From NCBI RefSeq assembly GCF_024346995.1, contig NZ_AP024887.1, positions 620,001 through 684,000 of the forward strand: a stretch of 64,000 nt of DNA, given 5' to 3'. Both the position numbers and the translations under genes were made by a program. Below the pieces are notes generated by a model that saw only the letters and a list, made by a program, of their open reading frames with translations, did no database searches and was not told where the DNA came from. Origin of the DNA: Vibrio palustris. GTDB lineage: Bacteria; Pseudomonadota; Gammaproteobacteria; Enterobacterales; Vibrionaceae. This document shows, in pieces, positions 7,681 through 50,253 of the stretch; positions within the stretch are counted from its first letter, which is position 1, and the number at the start of each line of letters is the position of its first letter.

Positions 7681-8790
7681 ATGACAATCAGTACCCCGCA
7701 AGAAATTATTGATGACATTCGTCAAGGAAAGATGGTTATCCTAATGGATGATGAAGATCGCGAAAATGAGGGCGATATTATTATGGCTGCTCAGGATGTG
7801 ACTCCTGAAGCCATAAACTTCATGGCGACTTATGGACGCGGTCTTATCTGTTTGACTCTAACGAAAGAGCGTTGTAAGCGTTTAGGTCTCAACCCGATGG
7901 TTGAAGATAATAGTGCGCAATTTTCAACCGCATTTACTGTCTCGGTTGAGGCAGCTGAAGGGGTGACAACAGGTATCTCTGCCGCGGATCGTGCCACTAC
8001 GGTACTTGCTGCTGCCGCCGATAATGCCAAAGCATCGGATTTAGTTCAGCCTGGCCACGTATTTCCATTAGCTGCGCAAGATGGTGGTGTACTCGTCCGT
8101 GCCGGTCATACCGAAGCCGGATGTGATTTAGCACGTTTAGCTGGTAAAGAGCCAGCGTCGGTGATTGTTGAAATCTTAAATGATGATGGCACGATGGCCC
8201 GTCGTCCAGACTTGGAAGTGTTTGCGAAAACACACGGCGTGAAGCTGGGCACGATTGCTGATTTAATTGAATACCGTAACAATACTGAAACGACCATTGA
8301 ACGTGTGGCAACGTGCCAGTTACCGACCGAGTATGGTGAGTTTGAATTAGTGACCTTCCGTGATGTGATTGATAACCAAGTACATTATGCATTGTGTAAA
8401 GGTGACATCATTCAAGGGGCACCTTTAGTACGCGTACACTTACAAGATACGTTTACCGATTTATTGCACAGTAACCGCAATTCAGATCGTAGCTGGCGAT
8501 TAGATCAAGCCATGGAGCGTATTGGCCAAGAAGGGGGCGTATTGGTTATTTTGGGCAAAGAAGAGAGCAGCGATTTATTAATGAATCGTGTCAAAGCTTT
8601 TGAAGCTCAAGATAATGGTGAAGCGCCTGCTATGGCGAAGAAACCAGGGACGTCACGCCGTGTTGGTGTTGGCTCACAAATTTTAGCGGATTTAGGGGTG
8701 ACGGATATGCGCCTACTATCTTCAGAAAATAAAAAATATCATGCACTCGGCGGCTTTGGATTAAATGTTGTTGAGTATGTGTGCCAGTAA
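7681..8790 (+). CDS. ribBX: 3,4-dihydroxy-2-butanone-4-phosphate synthase with degenerate GTP cyclohydrolase II domain (RibBX type)
   Basis: The N-terminal domain (about 1-200) is RibB: it makes 3,4-dihydroxy-2-butanone 4-phosphate from ribulose 5-phosphate. The acidic motif [10 protein letters not shown] (23-32) and the [11 protein letters not shown] segment are intact. The C-terminal part (about 206-369) aligns in position with GTP cyclohydrolase II but the zinc site, normally three cysteines in a GDVFGSxRCDCG context, is replaced by [18 protein letters not shown] with no cysteine. This is the proteobacterial variant named RibBX, whose second domain does not replace RibA. A separate ribA elsewhere is therefore expected. 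It is often annotated ribBA or ribB. Confidence 0.9.
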
Positions 8791-15288: not shown

Positions 15289-15369
15289 GAACTCTAAGTA
15301 TCTTGTCTTCACTATTGGCGACCGTTACTTATGATGTTTATAACTTACTTACATAAATCACACACATTC

Positions 15370-15452
15370 CGTCACGTGTTCCGGGGTGCCCTACTTAGAT
15401 AGGGTCGGAGACATGGGGGATGTGGAGGCCTAACCCCATATAGAGGATTATA
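15370..15452 (+). promoter_or_regulatory. Structured rpsB leader (S2 autoregulation element, putative)
   Basis: The 353-bp map-rpsB gap contains the promoter at 15254-15288 and this leader. Hairpin one: CCCTA (15389-15393) with TAGGG (15400-15404). Hairpin two: ATGGGG (15413-15418) with CCCCAT (15434-15439), ending just before the ribosome-binding site AGAGGA (15442-15447). The rpsB-tsf leader of E. coli is known to mediate S2 feedback, and the layout here fits, but homology was judged by eye. Confidence 0.6.
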
Positions 15453-49167: not shown

Positions 49168-49746
49168 TTAGCCAAGACGTTTTTGATGGTGCTCTTTGTT
49201 TTCTAATTTTTGCTGTGGCGTCTTTTTTAATAAAACGTAAACTGCGCCAGTGCCGCCATGGTATTGTTGTGTGCTATGCATACATTGCACATCGTTGATC
49301 TGTGGTAACCAATAGGCGACGTAGCTTTTGATAAGCGCAGGAGGGTTTGAACGCTCTCCTTTGCCATGCACGATCATGACGGTGCGTAACTCTAAACGCA
49401 GACATTGCTTAAAGAAGGCTAATATTTCCTCGCGCGCTTGCTTTAATGTGCGGCGGTGGAGGTCAAGGCGAGCTTGAATCGGGTACTTACCCAAGCGTAA
49501 TTTACGAAAGACCCCTTCCTGTATACCGTTGCGTTTAAACGAGATTATTTCATCTGGCTTGAGCATGGGGGCACTATCTAAGGATAAGTATTCAGGGTCG
49601 CGTTCAAGAAAGTGAGTGGCAGCCGTTCGGCGAGCTCGGTGAGCTTCTGTCACGGTAACATTGGGCTGGCATTCTGCGGTGTCATGAGTGAGCGGTTTGA
49701 CATCCTGCATCATTTGTTGGAATAGTTCAAAATCGTCGTCGGACAT
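49168..49746 (-). CDS. smrB: Endonuclease SmrB (Smr-domain ribosome rescue factor)
   Basis: The C-terminal Smr domain shows LDLHRRTLKQAREEI and MIVHGKGERSN. In E. coli the homologue (YfcN) cleaves mRNA between collided ribosomes, giving access to tmRNA. 192 residues. In most vibrios smrB diverges from prmB-aroC; here the divergent neighbour is a tRNA-Pro gene instead, and a sRNA-like unit with its own terminator lies between. Confidence 0.9.
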   Translation of the reverse strand: MSDDDFELFQQMMQDVKPLTHDTAECQPNVTVTEAHRARRTAATHFLERDPEYLSLDSAPMLKPDEIISFKRNGIQEGVFRKLRLGKYPIQARLDLHRRTLKQAREEILAFFKQCLRLELRTVMIVHGKGERSNPPALIKSYVAYWLPQINDVQCMHSTQQYHGGTGAVYVLLKKTPQQKLENKEHHQKRLG

Positions 49747-49817: not shown

Positions 49818-49849
49818 AAAAAACCGGAGCAGAATCGAGCCACTCCGGT
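49818..49849 (-). terminator. Terminator of the candidate sRNA, minus strand
   Basis: Read on the minus strand, ACCGGAG and CTCCGGT (plus 49843-49849 and 49823-49829) form a 7-bp stem with a 13-base loop, followed by six T. No annotated gene ends here, so an unlisted transcript must come from the right. Confidence 0.8.
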
Positions 49850-49955
49850 GGACAACAAGTATACGTTGTTAGAGACTTAGTGAGGAGATGTGTCGTCAGT
49901 ATACTAATGAACGTTGCAAATCAGCAGGTAGACACTCACTATTATGCCTGACGAC
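49818..49955 (-). ncRNA. Candidate FNR-activated small RNA
   Basis: A predicted transcript of about 138 nt. Its start (near 49955) is set by a -10 element TATGGT (49967-49962) and an FNR box centred about 41 bases upstream. The 5' end GUCGUCAG pairs perfectly with CUGACGAC (plus 49892-49899), closing a 5' domain. Then comes an unpaired, pyrimidine-rich AUCUCCUCAC, complementary to Shine-Dalgarno sequences, a small ACAAC/GUUGU hairpin (plus 49851-49870), and the terminator. No ORF of note. The gene is in the 430-bp smrB to tRNA-Pro gap and would read toward smrB. It resembles FnrS of E. coli in control logic, but not in recalled sequence; it may be a known Vibrio sRNA I cannot name. Confidence 0.6.
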
Positions 49956-49961
49956 GAATCT

Positions 49962-50002
49962 ACCATAGCACTTTAGTTAGGCAGATTAATGATCCAAATC
50001 AA
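49962..50002 (-). promoter_or_regulatory. FNR-type class II promoter of the candidate sRNA
   Basis: On the minus strand TTGATTTGGATCAT (plus 49989-50002) matches the FNR consensus TTGAT-N4-ATCAA at 9 of 10 informative positions. The -10-like TATGGT lies at plus 49962-49967. The spacing of the box centre to the expected start, 40.5-41.5 bases, is that of class II FNR activation. Confidence 0.6.

Positions 50003-50176: not shown

Positions 50177-50253
<77 letters not shown>

Follow-up and report, generated by a model that had tools for sequence, protein, structure and literature searches.

A candidate FNR-controlled dual-function RNA beside smrA in Vibrio, apparently reduced to a noncoding small RNA in Vibrio palustris

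The 64-kb stretch of Vibrio palustris DNA analysed here (the window) carries, on the minus strand of segment 49818–50002, what we interpret, with a probability of roughly 0.68, as an FNR-induced dual-function RNA of Vibrio, reduced in this copy to a stand-alone noncoding small RNA with an open anti-Shine-Dalgarno seed. The figure is not set higher because two rival readings, in which the RNA acts in cis or as a sponge, still stand and because no target was found. In most of the species examined, one and the same RNA would be both the messenger of a 46-residue DUF3149 protein and a regulatory RNA, the pairing element consisting of the gene's own last codons and its stop codon; in the species of the window the gene is gone and the RNA function alone would be left. 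As comparison of relatives shows at the sequence level, FNR box, element and closing helix are maintained where the gene is not, and this loss of the protein from an RNA that otherwise persists behind its switch suggests a small regulatory RNA.

The segment is flanked on one side by a tRNA-Pro gene (50177–50253) and on the other by a gene at 49168–49746, followed by rluF, upp and purM. This neighbour, taken for smrB in a first-pass annotation, is smrA, scoring 258.9 bits with NCBIfam NF033154 (cut-off 180) and 91.6 bits, under the cut-off of 128, with the SmrB model. On the minus strand, the FNR box TTGATTTGGATCAT (50002–49989) matches 9 of 10 informative bases and is followed by a putative -10-like hexamer, TATGGT (49967–49962), which is weak. 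The predicted small RNA of about 138 nt (49818–49955, minus strand, with a putative 5′ end at 49955) folds at -43.2 kcal/mol (z -4.1), a value equalled by none of 200 shuffles. The fold is closed by an exact 8-bp inverted repeat, GTCGTCAG/CTGACGAC, whose 5′ arm (49955–49948) and 3′ arm (49899–49892) are both supported by the predicted fold and by co-variation in relatives. The conserved element ACACATCTCCTCACTAA (49877–49893, minus strand), our candidate seed, shares its first two bases with the 3′ arm and corresponds to the last codons and stop of the relatives' DUF3149 gene; the CTCCTC at minus 49887–49882 is unpaired in the predicted fold. A small stem-loop is predicted in the interval between element and terminator (49852–49869, minus strand), and an intrinsic terminator lies at 49818–49849 on the same strand, with a stem at 49849–49823 followed by a T run; terminator-like sites in the surrounding 2 kb numbered 5 against 2.4 expected. 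All five signals that had first drawn attention to the segment, namely the box, the -10-like element, the perfect repeat at the predicted 5′ end, the unpaired CUCCUC run and the rho-independent terminator, were thus recovered. It had also been suggested that the RNA might be FnrS-like or an already named Vibrio small RNA; no Rfam family matches the minus-strand segment, and among the loci of 20 relatives Rfam matched nothing except tRNA. Elsewhere in the window, Rfam matches above the gathering score were found for t44 RNA (15341–15434, plus strand) and for the Vibrio antisense RNA V_AS9 (7778–7881, minus strand).

By itself the FNR box is within chance, 2 sites with at most one mismatch having been seen in the 64-kb window against 4.8 expected, and the case therefore rests on comparison with relatives. 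Of the 227 genomes available for the genus, DNA similarity alone reached only 8, counting the window's own, so the position of smrA was used as an anchor. A match to smrA was found in 225 of the 227 genomes, some of the matches being weak or only to a weaker Smr relative, and 150 smrA loci of the genus were examined; two very small genomes of the genus (G012 and G025, 1.0–1.1 Mb) had no match. Species names, assigned by smrA identity for 69 of the 150 loci, are Vibrio with few exceptions.

At the spot adjacent to smrA, 122 of the 150 loci carry a gene for a small protein of the DUF3149 family (PF11346), with a complete 46-codon frame in 121 of them. Two of the products scored 55.5 and 51.5 bits with the Pfam model (cut-off 23.2), and the two lowest-scoring genes (L048 and L127) may be damaged. 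The 46-residue protein probably resides in the membrane, since it is hydrophobic. CUCCUC is the end of this gene, whose common form is GAC AAA TCT CCT CAC TAG. Among the remaining 28 loci, the gene is broken or gone and the element kept in 22, four are without the element (L020, L128, L141 and L157), one at a contig edge is ambiguous (L096) and one runs into a contig end (L103). The view of the RNA as noncoding fits the window copy, where the small-protein gene is absent, but not for most relatives, in which the same predicted transcript would encode the DUF3149 protein and CUCCUC would be its last codons.

Class II FNR promoters are expected to start transcription 41–42 nt from the centre of the box. 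A box with at most one mismatch occurs at the same place in 143 of the 144 loci that keep the element (122/122 ahead of the DUF3149 gene, 21/22 in the gene-broken loci). By a simple scan, the predicted 5′ end is GUC in 115 loci, AUC in 20 and GUU in 9, and 104 of the 144 have a predicted GUC placed 41–42 nt from the centre of the box; a conserved box about 41.5 nt before the predicted start is consistent with a class II promoter. Box and element are separated by about 190–206 nt in intact loci, by 91–246 nt in broken ones and by 109 nt in the window. Past the element, a run of at least five T within 160 nt was found in 140 of the 144 loci, which suggests an intrinsic terminator with a U run, as in Hfq-dependent trans-acting small RNAs.

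In the order as a whole, 64 of 148 genomes have a DUF3149 match, 57 of them over the cut-off, and all 18 non-Vibrio loci of the order that were examined have an FNR box with at most one mismatch before the gene. Such a box was present at 24 of 26 loci from other genera of the family, the other two having two mismatches. The core CTCCTCACTAG was found in 8 of these 26 loci, and the exact AATCTCCTCACTA in 37 of 51 genomes of the same genus. Elsewhere in the family 4 of 99 genomes have it, one of the four at this locus. With boxes widespread in the order and the element rare outside the genus, the FNR link of the DUF3149 gene looks older than the element, which looks like a mark of Vibrio and some close kin. 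DUF3149 is accompanied by FNR-like boxes in many genera, often ahead of smrA (loci L239–L258 and L307–L335). The term "DUF3149" is absent from the main texts of the open-access literature searched; the family is an unstudied small protein, probably induced at low oxygen.

Codon usage was analysed in 96 distinct 46-codon DUF3149 genes. Codons 43–45 are without synonymous variation (AAA for 94/94 Lys, TCT in 96/96 and CCT in 96/96), codon 46 is CAC in 93 of the 96 genes and the stop is TAG in 94. At 20 other positions the main residue has four or six possible codons; the effective number of codons is 2.0–5.0 at 16 of these and 1.4–2.0 at the remaining four (7, 10, 26 and 33). Phe is nearly always encoded by TTC at codons 34 and 35 (72/76 and 78/80) and by TTT at codons 3 and 9 (84/90 and 90/96), with mixed usage at codons 22 and 30; the UUCUUC of codons 34–35 is able to pair with the GGAGGAA of the ribosome-binding site. 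Codons 6–11 (GAT CTC CTA TTT GGT AAT in L024, for example) form a second stretch with little synonymous variation, containing another UCUCCU, which is not retained in all broken loci.

The predicted 5′ end of the RNA pairs with the stretch that immediately precedes the element. In a set of 102 distinct arm pairs taken from the 144 loci, cognate arms reached -15.96 kcal/mol against -12.26 kcal/mol for swapped arms, a result equalled by none of 5000 permutations; the corresponding values were -16.80 and -11.96 in 13 chosen broken loci and -16.91 and -12.88 in 22 chosen intact ones (0/20,000 permutations each). If there were no constraint to pair, arms would be expected to bind their own partners no better than swapped ones, although shared base composition could contribute slightly. 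Compensating arm pairs include ACUUUG/CAAAGU, AUCUUG/CAAGAU and GAUGAUUUU/AAAAUCAUC, with GUC/GAC also replaced by AUC/GAU. UCUCCUCACUA is mostly unpaired (mean 0.69–0.97 in 116 intact loci, 0.57–0.93 in the 22 broken). In 40 intact genes, pairing of the ribosome-binding site with the 3′ arm was 0.62, against 0.22 in controls obtained by random synonymous recoding of codons 31–42, and the native RNA was more stable than the mean of its own recodings in 39 of the 40. Total pairing of the ribosome-binding site was 0.78 in native and recoded RNAs alike (0.61 without codons 31–46), so that hiding of the site as such was rejected and only its partner is special. FNR box, stem and CUCCUC-containing element are conserved across relatives, then, and the stem co-varies. 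The plan of an FNR-controlled small RNA proposed in the first-pass annotation is supported across the genus as regards box, terminator, open anti-Shine-Dalgarno element and helix; it had missed the coding past of the locus.

The exact 17-base element ACAAATCTCCTCACTAG is kept in 19 of the 22 gene-broken loci, and that of the window differs from the common form by two mismatches. Among 13 hand-picked representatives of the broken loci, four of them from one clade, identity was 0.95 for the element, 0.87 for the next 10 nt and 0.85 for the FNR box, only 0.40 and 0.50 for the helix arms, and 0.29, in an ungapped comparison, for the spacer ahead of smrA; the former coding middle reached 0.53 against 0.52 when shuffled (gapped alignment, 55 pairs with enough sequence). 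A tree of 150 smrA sequences, built with FastTree on 576 columns and rooted at the midpoint, implies 11 losses of the gene, or 10 without the ambiguous L096, suggesting about ten independent losses, an approximate count because nearby supports run from 0.14 to 1.0. Losses are seen, among others, in V. ruber, V. albus, V. xiamenensis, V. intestinalis, V. fujianensis, V. metschnikovii, V. injensis and V. cincinnatiensis DSM 19608, and at L018 the gene is still recognisable but interrupted by one in-frame stop. The two V. cincinnatiensis genomes differ, 19-VB00020 retaining most of the DUF3149 gene that DSM 19608 has lost (loci L127/L224 and L156/L233). A DUF3149 search of the 22 gene-broken genomes retrieved no complete small gene elsewhere: G018 showed its own broken copy, and G133, G153, G201 and G130 gave borderline matches (22.5–23.7 bits) inside frames of 222–229 aa. 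Three of the four element-less genomes, included in the same search, were without a match, and none was found in the window's own genome. On the smrA tree the window groups with the element-less L128 (genome G199); upstream of smrA, L128 has tRNA-like fragments repeated beside a tRNA gene.

On these observations we propose that, at low oxygen, FNR would switch on the transcript of about 138 nt, whose 5′ end would fold onto the stretch before the element, leaving UCUCCUCAC open; this would pair in trans with GUGAGGAG-like ribosome-binding sites, Hfq probably taking part. In gene-bearing species, a ribosome reaching the stop codon would open the helix and cover the element, and a single molecule could serve as messenger or as small RNA, never as both at once, an exclusion suggested by geometry alone. 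Because the seed lies in the last codons and stop, and because the helix would make translation and riboregulation exclusive, we tentatively advance, at a little short of even odds, the joint proposal that an oxygen-controlled mRNA became a stand-alone regulatory RNA about ten separate times in one genus, with its seed in the last codons and stop and with exclusion by the helix; if so, the window would hold one of the most reduced end states.

Target searches gave nothing convincing. With up to three mismatches, the complement of the element has 18 sites in the window's own genome, including its own locus, whereas the reversed control has 13; 3 of the 18 lie directly ahead of an open frame of at least 60 codons. 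In 12 hand-picked genomes, AGTGAGGAG followed by ATG was found at 37 sites (4 self) against 20 for the control, and no gene recurred among the 26 of 33 non-self sites inspected. Leaders of sdhC from 16 Vibrio genomes gave -12.8 to -16.7 kcal/mol, equalled by 1–19.5% of shuffled seeds. The earlier idea of pairing with mRNAs of aerobic metabolism was not shown by these searches, in which the sdhC leaders were weak and no target gene recurred. Also counting against our reading are the loss of the element in 4 of 150 loci, the tree neighbour of the window among them, the two mismatches of the window element and the total pairing of the ribosome-binding site, which is no higher than in recoded controls.

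That the RNA is already listed, unnamed, among the V. cholerae small RNAs (Vcr001–107 or Vcr200–230 tables), leaving only its anatomy and history as new, is quite possible, if on balance doubtful; it concerns novelty, not function, and is compatible with the dual-function reading. Such tables exist, as passages of PMC9732341 and PMC7398697 indicate, but no such RNA appeared in titles on smrA, Vibrio and small RNA or in literature on VC2220–VC2223 or VC2225. Vcr043, which has electron-transport targets, was rejected as the same RNA, since it is placed between VC1045 and VC1046 in the text seen of PMC8545128, whereas rluF, which lies beside smrA in the window, is given as VC_2223 in that of PMC12588516. 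On the side of function, the element might act in cis only, stabilising the transcript, binding a protein or tuning translation or termination of DUF3149, with no targets in trans; the fruitless target searches and the inclusion of the ribosome-binding site of the DUF3149 gene in the closing helix would suit this, but we consider it unlikely, as the 22 loci with no intact gene to tune still keep box, element and helix. It is very improbable that the RNA is a sponge pairing with another small RNA and not with mRNAs: Vibrio does have sponges such as QrrX (described in part of PMC9732341), and one short fixed seed with no conserved mRNA site found would agree with such a role, but the seed appears to resemble an anti-Shine-Dalgarno sequence. 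Least probable of all is a decaying pseudogene remnant, which would fit the missing DUF3149 gene of the window's genome but in which leftover similarity would not be confined to box, element and pairing, with 19 of 22 elements exact beside a middle at shuffle level and arms that still pair at identities of 0.40 and 0.50.

The preferred reading, an FNR-induced dual-function RNA that lost its protein, would propose an oxygen-responsive small RNA for Vibrio and connect the unstudied DUF3149 family with FNR across several families of the order. It would also offer a genus-wide natural experiment in the passage from messenger to noncoding regulator, in which about ten lineages keep switch and seed but lack the protein that their relatives still encode, and a candidate seed overlapping the stop codon, where ribosome and regulator would compete.

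FnrS (RF01796) resembles the window RNA in being a small RNA with its own terminator and an FNR-linked promoter. Its expression is FNR-dependent, and it is not known to have a protein stage. The E. coli fnrS gene is 2.6 kb away from smrA, but its sequence is unlike that of the window RNA and E. coli is without a DUF3149 match. Even with E values up to 10 allowed, RF01796 did not match the minus-strand segment, and it had no match in the listed genomes of the species and genus. Two FnrS-like copies of another family (L403 and L404) have no smrA within the 3.1 and 1.7 kb examined. The 8 genomes matched by RF01796 do not overlap with the 64 that have DUF3149, although these 8 span two families and so carry little weight. 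Neither descent of FnrS from the DUF3149 locus nor homology with it is supported.

OppZ, a small RNA from an mRNA 3′ end with its regulatory stretch near the stop codon (in the text seen of PMC7398697), and NarS, from the 3′ end of an FNR- or NarL-activated mRNA (likewise PMC9438474), share a regulatory stretch at the mRNA 3′ end by the stop codon, but their source mRNAs remain coding, whereas in the window RNA its own 5′ end pairs before the element and the coding part was repeatedly lost. The nearest known kind is that of SgrS/SgrT and VcdRP, which, as described in parts of PMC8672173, carry a small protein and a pairing part on one transcript: in SgrS the pairing part is conserved but some species lack the ORF, so that there is in principle a precedent for a dual-function RNA losing its ORF, while VcdRP encodes a 29-residue protein under CRP control whose ORF is kept in all species tested. 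The family of the window differs from both in its DUF3149 gene, its FNR box and its seed in the last codons and stop. As far as the main texts of open-access papers show, what is new is the locus, the link to FNR, a seed composed of the final codons with the stop, and how many times the gene was lost.
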